Shown here: in pieces, positions 47,237 through 53,424 of the stretch
Layout: each line of letters begins with the position of its first letter
Numbering within the stretch: position 1 is the stretch's first letter
Assembly (NCBI GenBank): GCA_028866895.1
Contig: JAGWHF010000001.1
Coordinates: 124,001-188,000 of the forward strand
DNA length: 64,000 nucleotides
DNA from: Nitrososphaerota archaeon
GTDB lineage: Archaea; Thermoproteota; Nitrososphaeria; Nitrososphaerales; Nitrosopumilaceae
Direction: 5' to 3'
Program-made: the position numbers and the translations under genes
The notes under the pieces: generated by a model
Seen by the model: the letters and a program-made list of their open reading frames with translations, nothing else
Told to the model about the DNA's origin: nothing
The model's database searches: none

Positions 47237-48442
47237 CTAATCGAAAGTGCAGTCTGGCATCAGCGGATTTTTCCAGCGTCCTACGTAGGAGCTTATCGAA
47301 TAGCTTCTCTTGATTCTGGGGGAATCCCACCACACCTTGGGGGATCTGATTTCCGTAGCTCTCTTTTCTAGAGCGCCAACAATCTTTTCCGCTGAATTGG
47401 GCTGTCCGTAGGGGTGTTTCCAGATGGGCTTTCTGTTTACCATCTTGTCGACCGCCTCCATGATGTGTTTCTTGTTCAAACCGGCAACAATGTTGGACCC
47501 GACCTCGACTGTCTCCGATCTCTCTGTGCTTATCCTCATGGTAACACAAGGCGTTCTAAATATGCACGAGTCCTCCTGGACTGTTCCAGAGTCGGTAATG
47601 CAACAAAAGGCGTTCTTCTCAAGCTTTGAAAATTCTAGGAATCCTAGCGGATCCATGAGCGTAATTCCTGGAGGCACCTTGAGTTTAAACTTTTTTATGC
47701 TGGCCCTGCTTCTTGGATGAATTGGAAAGATTACACGTTTTCCATATTTTTTGCGGATCTCTCCCAATGCTTCCATGATGTTCCTAAGAGGGGTAATGGT
47801 TCCCACATTTTCGGGTCTGTGGGCTGTTACAAGGAAGTAGTCCTTTCGTTCTATACTGAGTTTTTCCATGATCTCATTTCTGTCAATCTCGTGCCTGAAC
47901 TCGTAAAGGACGTCCCAGATCAGCTTGCCTACTTGGAATATGCGGTGGGGAGGTATCCCTTCGTCAAGAAGGTTCTTTCTAGTTGTTGCAGTGGGTGCAA
48001 ACAGGTAATCTGCGATGCTGTCCATTAGCCGCCGGTTCTTCTCTTCGGGCATTCTCCAGTCATAGCTACGCATTCCAGCCTCGAGATGGGCTACCTTGAT
48101 TCCCATCTTTGAAGCGACTATCCCTGAGAGGGATGGGTTTGCGTCGGAAAAGGAAAAGACGAGGTTGGGCTTCTCCTTAAGAAGGACTCTCTCAAACCTC
48201 TCTACAAGAAGGGCAAGTTGTTGGGCTTGTGTGCCGGAACCAACCTTTAGGTGGTAGTCAGGCTTGGGGAAATTCAACTGCTCAAAAAAAAGCCTGTCAA
48301 AAAAATATGAGTAGTGTTGTCCTGTGTGGACAACGGTAAAATCACACTTTCTCCTCTGGAGCTCCCGTACAAGAGGATGAAGATTTATGATATCGGGCCT
48401 GATGCCCAAAACAACCATGTATTTTAATGACACAAATTTCAT
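47237..48442 (-). CDS. wecB: UDP-N-acetylglucosamine 2-epimerase (WecB/CapG-like)
   Basis: A 401-residue non-hydrolysing 2-epimerase. Family marks are LGIRPDIINLHPL, VVHTGQHYSYFFDRLFFEQ, AHLEAGMRSYDWRMPEEKNR, VTAHRPENVGT and ITDSGTVQEDS. The details (GQHYSYF, RMPEE) are nearer to the CapG/WbjD group than to E. coli WecB. It interconverts UDP-GlcNAc and UDP-ManNAc, or a deoxy-sugar analogue. With the SDR, cupin and reductase genes it fits a UDP-amino-sugar pathway. Start ATG 48442 has a GGTTATATTGG box about 23 nt upstream. Confidence 0.92.
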   Translation of the reverse strand: MKFVSLKYMVVLGIRPDIINLHPLVRELQRRKCDFTVVHTGQHYSYFFDRLFFEQLNFPKPDYHLKVGSGTQAQQLALLVERFERVLLKEKPNLVFSFSDANPSLSGIVASKMGIKVAHLEAGMRSYDWRMPEEKNRRLMDSIADYLFAPTATTRKNLLDEGIPPHRIFQVGKLIWDVLYEFRHEIDRNEIMEKLSIERKDYFLVTAHRPENVGTITPLRNIMEALGEIRKKYGKRVIFPIHPRSRASIKKFKLKVPPGITLMDPLGFLEFSKLEKNAFCCITDSGTVQEDSCIFRTPCVTMRISTERSETVEVGSNIVAGLNKKHIMEAVDKMVNRKPIWKHPYGQPNSAEKIVGALEKRATEIRSPKVWWDSPRIKRSYSISSYVGRWKNPLMPDCTFD

Positions 48443-48559
48443 CCAATTCCAACCCCAATATAACCTTCCTCCAAGATGATGGTGTCTTGAGAGACTTGGT
48501 TCTTGCAGGAACGGATAATCTATAATAAGTATCAGAATATACCCATAAAATCAACAACC

Positions 48560-49438
48560 ATGAAAGTCTCGATAGTTATTCCGGTTTACAATGCCTCAAA
48601 ATACATAGATGAGTGCGTACTGTCCGCACTGGGGCAGACATACAAGGACATAGAGATAATTGCGGTAGACGATGGCTCAAAGGATGACTCGCTTGAGAGG
48701 TTGGGAAAGTATGAAGACAAGATAAAAATAATATCTAAAAAAAATGGAGGAACGCCGACAGCGCTGAATGCAGCCATAAGGGTCATGACGGGAGAATGGT
48801 TCAAGTGGTTGAGTGCCGACGATCTGTTGGAAAGGAATGCGATTGAGGTCTTGGTAGGAGAGGTGGAAAAGCTGGGAGACAAGTCAAGCTCTCATATTCT
48901 GTATTCGAACTACAGCCTAATTGACAAGGATGGAAAGATGGTAGGAGAGTTCGTCGAGCCGGATTATAACGGATTGGATGAATTTGAAAGGAATGTGGTA
49001 CTGCTGGATCATTACTATGGAAATGGAACCACCAGCCTGATACCCAAGTCCATCTTCGATAGGTTCGGCCTCTTTGATGAGGGAATAGGATTTCAAGAAG
49101 ACTATGAGTTCTGGCTTCGGTGTTGTATTTTTCACGACTGCAGGCTCCATCTGGTGCCCCAGAAGCTTGCAAGGTACCGAATCCACGAGGGTCAGTTGAC
49201 CAAGACCAAGATCAATGAAGCTCTGGAACATGCCTCGTCCATACGATCTCTCATCTTGAACAGGCTTCCTGAAGACAAGAGGAAACTATACGTGACTGCC
49301 TTAAAGAGGTATCAGAGAAACAAGCCGGTTGCAACAAGGCTTAGGCGGCAGATAAGGGATATAATGATTCACGTACTGCCAAAAAGTGTATCAAGTTCGA
49401 TTATCAAGTCCTATGTGAATAGGAAAAGAGTCAGTTGA
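48560..49438 (+). CDS. glycosyltransferase family 2
   Basis: A 292-residue GT-A enzyme. It opens KVSIVIPVYNASKYIDE with the nucleotide site DDGSKDDSLE and the metal-binding SADD (DxD-type). EDYEFWLRC is the acceptor segment. ATG 48560 is used; the frame is open to 48503 but those residues are not family-like. It overlaps the convergent glycosyltransferase by 8 bp. Donor and acceptor are unknown. Confidence 0.92.
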   Translation: MKVSIVIPVYNASKYIDECVLSALGQTYKDIEIIAVDDGSKDDSLERLGKYEDKIKIISKKNGGTPTALNAAIRVMTGEWFKWLSADDLLERNAIEVLVGEVEKLGDKSSSHILYSNYSLIDKDGKMVGEFVEPDYNGLDEFERNVVLLDHYYGNGTTSLIPKSIFDRFGLFDEGIGFQEDYEFWLRCCIFHDCRLHLVPQKLARYRIHEGQLTKTKINEALEHASSIRSLILNRLPEDKRKLYVTALKRYQRNKPVATRLRRQIRDIMIHVLPKSVSSSIIKSYVNRKRVS

Positions 49439-50504
49439 TGGACTCGATCTCTTTTAGCATGTTGCTTTGAAAATTTTCAACAGAAAACTTTTCTATGTGG
49501 AGTTTCAGCATCTGTCTGAGATGATCATACTTTCCCTCGAGCGCGTCCTTTATCTTAAGGGCCGCTTCCTCACTCCCCTTGAATCTCAACTGTTCAAAGG
49601 GTACTGTTTCAAGGAAGGCAAAGGCATCTGGTACTATGGGGATACATCCGGCGGAGATTGCCTCGACTACTGAGATCCCAAAGGTCTCCTTGGAGGGGTG
49701 GAAGTAGACCTTGGAGCAACCTAGAAACTTTTCGATATCGGAACTTGGCAGGTTTGGCAGGATGGAAATATTCGAGCTTTCTGCCTCGCGCCTTAGTTCG
49801 TTGTAGAGGTTGAGTTGCGATTCGAACTTGGCGCTTCCAATCAGTGTGTATTTGAATTTCCCGATCTTGGCTACCTCTATCGCAAACTTGAGATTTTTTT
49901 CCGGAGAAAATCTGGAAAGGGTGACTACGCTGCTGTCTTTGCTGGAATCAAACCACCCTGAAAATTTCCTGATATCTACCGGAGGGTAGATGACCAGGGA
50001 GTCCTTTCCAGTGATATCCATTATGACTTTTCTCGTAAAGTTGGAATTGGAAACCAGCTTCACCGAAGGATCGCGCAACCTTTCAAATGAGGCACTGAGG
50101 TTATTTTGGATCATCCTGTAATAAGCACCTTTGATGCTAGGAAATTTCTTCTTCAAAAACTCATGCTCTGCCTCGAAGGTGGAATGACAATAAAGGATTA
50201 TTCTCTTGACTGGGGTCTTCTCGAGGATGAGGTTGCCGCTGCCTATGACCAGAACGTCCTCGCCAGAGGCATCACTAAAAAGCTTCCGCACCTCCTTCAT
50301 CCTCTGGTACCTCCAAAGTGAGGGTAGATTCCCTCGCTTGATCTTGTGAACCTTGAGGTTCTGTGATTCCTCGATGGCGGGCGGCTCGACCGTGTAAAGA
50401 GTAGTGGCATGGCTTGTCCTCCTTAAGGCCTCGAGTATGCATGTTGACGTGATCTCGGCTCCACCGGGAACCTTAAATGAGGGATGGATAAGGCCGACTT
50501 TCAA
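49431..50504 (-). CDS. glycosyltransferase family 4
   Basis: A 357-residue GT-B enzyme starting KVGLIHPSFKVPGGAEI with LSRFSPEKNLKF and SKETFGISVVEAISAGCIPIV (E-x7-E). It resembles the gene at 43942 along its whole length and the two probably arose by duplication. Start is TTG 50504, with a TTATATC box about 28 nt upstream. Confidence 0.92.
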   Translation of the reverse strand: MKVGLIHPSFKVPGGAEITSTCILEALRRTSHATTLYTVEPPAIEESQNLKVHKIKRGNLPSLWRYQRMKEVRKLFSDASGEDVLVIGSGNLILEKTPVKRIILYCHSTFEAEHEFLKKKFPSIKGAYYRMIQNNLSASFERLRDPSVKLVSNSNFTRKVIMDITGKDSLVIYPPVDIRKFSGWFDSSKDSSVVTLSRFSPEKNLKFAIEVAKIGKFKYTLIGSAKFESQLNLYNELRREAESSNISILPNLPSSDIEKFLGCSKVYFHPSKETFGISVVEAISAGCIPIVPDAFAFLETVPFEQLRFKGSEEAALKIKDALEGKYDHLRQMLKLHIEKFSVENFQSNMLKEIESIN

Positions 50505-51504: not shown

Positions 51505-53424
51505 TTGGTTTTAAAGAAAGACGTAGTTTGCGGTCTTGGGGAGATTGGGATGCCAATCCTCAAATTAATCTCGAGGGGAATCGTGGCAGTCGGTTATGAT
51601 ACTAATCCAGATCTTGTGGACCAATCTAAATTGGAGAGACTTGGCAGGCTACCTACCGAGCTGTTACATGTGGCCATACCGTATAATGCGAAATTTCACG
51701 ATAATGTGAAAAGCCTTATCTCCATGTTCAAGCCGGAATGTGTGGTCATACACAGCACGATAAGCCCAGGTGCCACGGAGAAACTTCAAAAAAAGATAAG
51801 GATTCCGGTAATTTACAGCGCGACCCGCGGGGTGCACAAGAGGATGCTAAAAGACCTTAGGAGGTATACAAAGTTCTACTCGGTATACAGCTGGGCGCCG
51901 AAGTCGGAATGGGCACGAAAGGTCTACGAGAATCGCATGAGGAAGGCGCACGTCAAAACTAGGAGCATGTCGAGCCCCCTTGCCCTCGAACTGGCAAAGA
52001 TCGTAGTCGATACGTCATACTATGGGTGGCTCATCAACTATGCACAGCTTAGCAACATGATTGCGATAAAGCACAAGGTAGATTATGATGAGATGTGGTC
52101 GTTTGCTGATGAAATTCAAAAGTATCTTGGCAACAGGCCCAAGATGTTCCCTGGGTTCATTGGAGGCCACTGTCTTGATGCAAATGAGATAATATTCATC
52201 AGAACCGAATTGGGCATGAAGCCGGTTTCTATCAAGGAATATGTGGAAAAGGAATACACAAACGACTTGTTGTCTTATGACACAAAAACCATGCAGCCTT
52301 TTTTTGACAAGGTTACAGCAAAGTGGAAGCGAGTATTCCGTGGTACCATGGTTACCCTGACATCGAGGACAAATCGCTCTATCACGACCACTGATGAGCA
52401 TCTTATGTTGGTAACAGACAATCTTTCAGAAAGATTCGCAAAAGAGATCAACGTAAATGACCATATCCCATTTGTTGCACAGTTGCCGGGTTGTGATGTG
52501 AAACAATCTTTTGACTTTGAATCAAAAAATTGGAGGCATGAATATAACATGCCACGGTCAATAATACTTACTGGGGATTTTTGCAGGCTGCTGGGATATT
52601 ATGTGGCGGAAGGTTCGGTAAGCAACTATGGCAGGGGATACGCCATCAGGTTCTCCTTTAATAAAAATGAAACAAGATACATTAAAGACGTTTGTAGCAT
52701 CCTCGCATCAATAAAAATTAACTATTATGTAACAACATCAGGCAATGTAACCCACGTGGTGGCAAAATCAACATCTCTGTCACTATTTGTTTCTGACACG
52801 CTTGGCTGCGGAAGAAATTCCACCACCAAGGGCCTGCCAGAGTTTATCTATTTTGCGTCAAGGAAAATGAAGGACGAGTTCCTCTCTGGATATCTAAGGG
52901 GAGACGGGTCATTTTCTCCGGATATCGGTCTTGTTCAAGCGGGCACGTCTTCTAAGATGCTTGCTGCGGGTCTTGACATCTTGCTACTTTCACTGGGATG
53001 TGTAATGACCCTGATTGAGGGGACTCATAGTCCCAACATGATGGAAGGCAGGATTGTTCAGGAGGGCAGGATTTATTCGCTTCTTTCAAAGAAACAAGTT
53101 CAAAACAACCGCCTTGCGAATGTTGCAGGCATGAGAGGATCACAGATTGCAAGTATAAACGAAAAGGAGCTATGGCATACATTAAACAATAATCTGTACA
53201 TGATTCGGACTACGAAAACACTGCACCAAGAATCAGAACAGGAAGTGTATTCTGTGGATACCAAGAATCATTTGTTTGTATCCACGGGAGGACGTCTCAT
53301 CCATAATTGCGTGATCCCGAACCTTGACTTGCTAGAAGACAAGACCCTTAATCTTATCAAAGAGATTAATTCTGATTATGCCAAAGTCCTGAGGAAAAGA
53401 AAGTCATTAGGCAAGAAATACTAA
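51505..53424 (+). CDS. short nucleotide-sugar dehydrogenase (GGHC type) interrupted by an intein
   Basis: A 639-codon gene whose host part is residues 1-222 plus 602-639, giving a 260-residue protein after splicing. The N-extein has an NAD loop VVCGLGEIGMP, IHSTISPGAT and the dimerisation helices (ALELAKIVVDTSYYGWL). It ends FPGFIGGH; the C-extein begins CVIPNLDLLED, restoring the catalytic GGHC of UDP-ManNAc-type dehydrogenases. The C-terminal UDP-binding domain of the usual 400-plus-residue enzymes is missing. It could oxidise a UDP-sugar alone, or with another subunit. Start is TTG 51505 about 28 nt behind a TATTATTTG box. It lies next to WecB, glycosyltransferases and SDRs. Confidence 0.88.
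   Translation: MVLKKDVVCGLGEIGMPILKLISRGIVAVGYDTNPDLVDQSKLERLGRLPTELLHVAIPYNAKFHDNVKSLISMFKPECVVIHSTISPGATEKLQKKIRIPVIYSATRGVHKRMLKDLRRYTKFYSVYSWAPKSEWARKVYENRMRKAHVKTRSMSSPLALELAKIVVDTSYYGWLINYAQLSNMIAIKHKVDYDEMWSFADEIQKYLGNRPKMFPGFIGGHCLDANEIIFIRTELGMKPVSIKEYVEKEYTNDLLSYDTKTMQPFFDKVTAKWKRVFRGTMVTLTSRTNRSITTTDEHLMLVTDNLSERFAKEINVNDHIPFVAQLPGCDVKQSFDFESKNWRHEYNMPRSIILTGDFCRLLGYYVAEGSVSNYGRGYAIRFSFNKNETRYIKDVCSILASIKINYYVTTSGNVTHVVAKSTSLSLFVSDTLGCGRNSTTKGLPEFIYFASRKMKDEFLSGYLRGDGSFSPDIGLVQAGTSSKMLAAGLDILLLSLGCVMTLIEGTHSPNMMEGRIVQEGRIYSLLSKKQVQNNRLANVAGMRGSQIASINEKELWHTLNNNLYMIRTTKTLHQESEQEVYSVDTKNHLFVSTGGRLIHNCVIPNLDLLEDKTLNLIKEINSDYAKVLRKRKSLGKKY
52171..53307 (+). mobile_element. intein with LAGLIDADG homing endonuclease, 379 residues
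   Basis: In-frame insert from Cys223 to Asn601 of the host gene. The N-terminal splice residue is Cys223 (CLDANEIIF). Block B is TTTDEHLML with His299. The two LAGLIDADG helices are LLGYYVAEGS (catalytic Glu369) and LSGYLRGDGS (Asp467), spaced about 98 residues apart, typical of a DOD endonuclease. The C-terminal splice end is VYSVDTKNHLFV and GGRLIHN (His600-Asn601), followed by Cys602 of the host. All residues needed for standard splicing are present and the frame is intact, so it looks active. The junction falls directly before the host catalytic Cys. Confidence 0.92.

Follow-up and report, generated by a model that had tools for sequence, protein, structure and literature searches.

Archaeal class 1 LAGLIDADG inteins, exemplified by PI-PkoII and the intein of V-ATPase subunit A, are placed before a Cys at a conserved functional site of their hosts and combine splicing residues in blocks A, B, F and G with two LAGLIDADG motifs. 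An intein is also carried by MJ1054, the UDP-glucose dehydrogenase of M. jannaschii, a full-length host. It is already established that inteins can occupy catalytic sites and that occupied sites coexist with empty ones (PMC5874633, PMC4071816, PMC10643990). In the haloarchaeal MCM/Cdc21 inteins, empty and occupied sites are likewise found and intein presence is discordant with the host phylogeny (PMC10643990, PMC4071816).

The locus described here lies in a 64,000-nucleotide stretch of a Nitrosopumilaceae genome (hereafter the window, from genome G000). It contains what is read, with a probability of about 0.92, as a class 1 LAGLIDADG intein, complete and probably active, inserted at GGH/C of a short UDP-glucose-dehydrogenase-like protein. 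The element resembles the archaeal inteins above in its block A, B, F and G residues, its two LAGLIDADG motifs and its position before a Cys at a conserved functional site, whereas its host and insertion site differ and block F carries Ser where Asp is commonest. With MJ1054 it shares the host superfamily, but the MJ1054 host is full-length and the present one short. The haloarchaeal comparison differs in that MCM/Cdc21 is a replication helicase, whereas the host here is a probable metabolic enzyme of Nitrososphaerota.

Architecture of the interrupted gene and predicted splicing

The frame at 51505–53424 on the plus strand is intact and encodes a 639-residue precursor from the TTG at 51505, the sole usable start; a TTG start is apparent in several relatives too. 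Three parts follow one another on this strand. The N-extein of 222 residues (51505–52170), assigned from sequence, homologues and fold prediction, is the Rossmann-type N-terminal part of the short host protein. It is followed by the 379-residue class 1 intein with its LAGLIDADG homing endonuclease domain (52171–53307), assigned from sequence, profiles and orthologues, and by a C-extein of 38 residues plus stop (53308–53424), defined by sequence and homologue alignment, which starts with Cys602, at once the +1 residue and the Cys that is invariant across the host family, and continues with VIPN. The predicted masses are 72.7 kDa for the precursor, 29.9 kDa for the spliced host and 42.9 kDa for the intein. 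Only one host copy, the interrupted one, was found in G000.

All splicing and endonuclease motifs were located on the plus strand. Block A (CLDANEIIFIRT, 52171–52206) opens with the nucleophile Cys1, where the TIGR01445 match also begins, and block B (TTTDEH, 52384–52401) supplies Thr74 and His77 of the intein, the latter being His299 of the precursor. The first LAGLIDADG motif, LLGYYVAEG (52588–52614), carries the acid Glu147 (precursor Glu369), and the second, LSGYLRGDG (52882–52908), which lies inside the Pfam LAGLIDADG_3 match, carries Asp245 (precursor Asp467). Block F (VYSVDTKNHLFV, 53245–53280; convention of PMC4031507) contains His367 and, in place of the commonest Asp, Ser361, a point counted against the preferred reading. 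Block G (GGRLIHN, 53287–53307) ends with the penultimate His378 and the terminal Asn379. Each of these residues (Cys1, Thr74, His77, Glu147, Asp245, Ser361, His367, His378 and Asn379) was invariant in the alignment of seven inteins from this site.

Profile searches gave the same picture. Pfam Intein_splicing (PF14890) matched at 3.6e-12 with 46.8 bits against a cut-off of 35.8, LAGLIDADG_3 (PF14528) matched above its cut-off at 1.1e-10, and the NCBIfam profile intein_Nterm (TIGR01445) scored 26 against 24.5, with its match beginning precisely at residue 223. The features that define class 1, namely Cys1, a terminal Asn and Cys+1, were present in 7/7 inteins, block B has the form Thr-x-x-His, the penultimate residue is His, and two LAGLIDADG motifs with catalytic acids, the mark of a homing intein of this kind, were found in 7/7. 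A sequence-only reading of the window had called an intein here; its coordinates, frame and residue numbers proved exact (Cys223 to Asn601 at 52171–53307, GGH|C, LIHN before Cys602), His299, Glu369 and Asp467 lie in the motifs where it had put them, and the full set of class 1 splicing residues, both LAGLIDADG acids and the open frame bear out the call itself. The best solved structure by sequence match to the intein was PI-PkoII (2cw7, 1.9e-8), and the AlphaFold2 model of the intein built from the seven sequences reached a pLDDT of 39, too low for use.

Class 1 splicing proceeds by way of Cys1, then Cys+1 and then Asn cyclisation (PMC4031507), and the residues found here predict that the precursor would splice by the same route. 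Cys1 would form the N-terminal thioester, the host Cys602 would receive the N-extein as the +1 nucleophile, and Asn601 would cyclise to leave an unscarred GGHCVIPN junction. Since the host itself supplies the +1 residue, in the form of its invariant Cys, excision would restore that Cys without a scar. The unspliced precursor is likely to be inactive because 379 residues split its GGHC loop. In addition, the endonuclease is predicted to cleave the conserved PGFIGGHCVIPNL stretch of alleles that lack the intein, whereupon recombination would copy the intein in.

A short host family with a dehydrogenase fold

The host is a protein of ~260 residues belonging to a Nitrososphaerota-specific family and ends ~38 residues beyond the Cys. 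An AlphaFold2 model of an intein-free homologue (pLDDT 88.9) consisted of a Rossmann domain and a long helix, and its best solved fold match was the UDP-glucose dehydrogenase 1dli (E 2.2e-10, TM 0.76 by query length), with hydroxyisobutyrate dehydrogenases ranking close after the UDP-glucose dehydrogenases. The host family profile found 4r16 at 4.9e-8, with the host GGhC aligned to the GGHC of 4r16. Fold model and profiles assign the first two domains of the UDP-glucose dehydrogenase fold to the host, its Cys falling at the catalytic position. Among the 33 intein-free homologues, Lys164 and Cys222 were invariant, and so was Asn226 at Cys+4, where the alignment leads one to expect the catalytic Asp. 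A swap of Asn and Asp with Asn208 of UDP-glucose dehydrogenase was considered and ruled out, the alignment being shifted by one residue and the invariant Thr169 standing at that position.

Compared with the UDP-glucose/GDP-mannose dehydrogenases (TIGR03026; 1dli, 4r16), the host shares the Rossmann domain, the long central helix with an invariant Lys and the GGxC motif, but it has ~260 rather than ~410–460 residues and Asn instead of Asp at Cys+4, and a C-terminal NDP-binding domain was not found in it by Pfam. Against the nucleotide-sugar dehydrogenase family TIGR03026 it scored 21–27 bits, far under the cut-off of 189.8. Related genomes, for example G035 and G006, hold canonical full-length enzymes besides, so the short host forms a family separate from the canonical NDP-sugar dehydrogenases. 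The name nucleotide-sugar dehydrogenase, proposed from the window sequence, is too specific for the protein, which is no canonical member of that group. The accompanying description of the interrupted residue as the catalytic cysteine is likely by homology, through its alignment with the catalytic Cys of NDP-sugar dehydrogenases (4r16); the invariant Cys is a probable catalytic residue, yet it may not act in the same way as in those enzymes, since the host has neither the catalytic Asp nor an NDP-binding domain.

The downstream neighbours, an IF-2B family gene followed by one for a FeS-assembly/PqqD-domain protein, were the same in many relatives. Upstream, the interval 47237–50504 of the window contains genes for a UDP-GlcNAc 2-epimerase-like protein and two glycosyltransferases. 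Such neighbours would be in keeping with a host function related to sugars, but relatives conserve the arrangement only in part.

Empty sites, occupied sites and movement between hosts

The host gene was found in 47 of the 151 relatives searched, 19 of them within the genus, and the named relatives that match the host protein were Nitrosotalea and Nitrosopumilaceae MAGs. The junction was gapless in all 33 full-length intein-free homologues, as the sequence-only reading had expected of an alignment with insert-free homologues, and the Cys was kept in 33/33; the junction residues were GGHC in 32 of them and GGRC in the remaining one (L016/L038, G072), which retains the Cys. In some relatives (G012, G056 and G077; L048, L049 and L052) the host gene is apparently broken by frameshifts or stops, which may reflect assembly errors or may mean that some members of the family can do without it.

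The insert was carried by 5 of the 19 host-bearing genomes of the genus. Six complete orthologous inteins besides that of the window occupied the identical site, four in the genus (G006, G015, G023 and G024) and two in other genera (G228 and G336), whose hosts belong to a divergent subfamily. All seven same-site inteins were 378–380 residues long and every frame was open. The insert is therefore not a chance feature, being intact at the identical site in six other genomes while insert-free homologues are gapless. When the intein profile was run against 400 genomes of the class, the same-site set was recovered at E 1e-212 or better; because the next matches dropped to ~1e-29 and sat in other genes, the seven inteins form one site-specific allele family. 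No intein at the same site was found among the matches listed for canonical NDP-sugar dehydrogenases in a search of 300 genomes of the phylum, all of which ran unbroken through the profile. A viral origin was considered and set aside, as viral contigs and phages yielded distant inteins alone, at ≤36% identity and none at this site.

Within the main host subfamily, pairwise identities were 64–82% for the intein and 64–74% for the host. Between this subfamily and that of G228 and G336, the inteins were still 65–73% identical although their hosts were only 44–47% identical, which shows that the intein has moved horizontally between host subfamilies, as homing inteins do. The branch dividing the subfamilies measured 0.26 changes per site for the inteins and ~2.7 for the hosts. 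On the 40-row host tree, intein presence required 7 changes, of which well-supported branches force at least 5, and nearly every interrupted gene had an uninterrupted nearest relative. A single clade of the five main-subfamily intein hosts was strongly rejected; given the long branches present, the weight for mobility was put on change counts and branch lengths rather than on this test. For the G336/G228 pair, the intein had a dS of 0.37 and the host one of 0.95; dS was near saturation for most pairs. GC3 in G000 was lower in the intein (0.446) than in the host (0.575), and in G006 and G228 it was higher in the intein than in the host. Identities, branch lengths, change counts, dS and GC3 agree with repeated horizontal entry.

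The DNA near the site varied mostly at third positions, with the first and second positions of the IGGHC and N codons nearly fixed, so that one endonuclease could plausibly recognise all these sites. The near invariance of the target peptide would explain how the intein moved between hosts that are only ~45% identical. A less favoured explanation, which we regard as unlikely, is that the intein still splices while its endonuclease is now inactive, the present spread being due to old homing and whole-host-gene transfer. Losses can indeed yield sporadic presence, and most within-genus branches are old, with dS near saturation. However, both catalytic acids are invariant in 7/7, and purifying selection acts on the endonuclease part as strongly as on the splicing part (dN/dS ~0.1 in both for the pairs compared); moreover, whole-gene transfer is unable to explain inteins of 65–73% identity in hosts of 44–47% identity.

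Several other inteins were observed in G000. One interrupts a 2-oxoacid:ferredoxin oxidoreductase beta-like protein at NDWCPG|C (C33:50160 region; L067, 595–2664, minus strand), its +1 residue being the second Cys of a CxxC motif, and related frames with this arrangement (L078, L079, L080, L082, L084 and L098) come from several genera of the class. Further inteins lie in MCM, an SNF2-family helicase (apparently two) and RtcB, at loci on C4 (L061), C22 (L062, L065 and L066) and C87 (L063). The total for the genome is at least six, many for the phylum by the 2023 table (PMC10643990).

Parasite or switch, and wider meaning

The presence of Cys as both nucleophiles, the second of them the probable active-site Cys of the host, raises the idea that the insertion has been retained as a redox switch. 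Insertion at the invariant Cys would leave the unspliced protein without its normal active site, and mycobacterial DnaB inteins are reported to splice conditionally. Most relatives in the same genus nevertheless do without the intein, which 5 of 19 carry, and its presence changes at least five times on the host tree; the distribution looks like that of a parasite rather than a conserved switch, and retention for this purpose seems improbable. A bolder form of the idea, in which an undescribed short dehydrogenase family with a catalytic Cys is gated by an intein that would release active enzyme when both Cys are reduced, is more doubtful still. That residues 223–601 arose as an artefact of assembly, or are ordinary host sequence in the form of an inserted domain, can practically be dismissed, as no point in support was found and the gapless homologues, the intein profiles above cut-off and the same insert in seven genomes all speak against it.

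The preferred reading, a complete and probably active homing intein, thus concerns an element of known kind, whose host and lineage seem under-sampled. In the 2023 survey table, 18 Thaumarchaeota genomes account for only one single-intein gene, with an undetectable endonuclease (PMC10643990), and endonuclease-bearing inteins therefore look under-reported in this group. At this one site, within one archaeal family, seven alleles with the intein and at least 33 without it make up a well-resolved natural series, suited to testing how the element homes and splices and what it costs to interrupt a probable active-site Cys.
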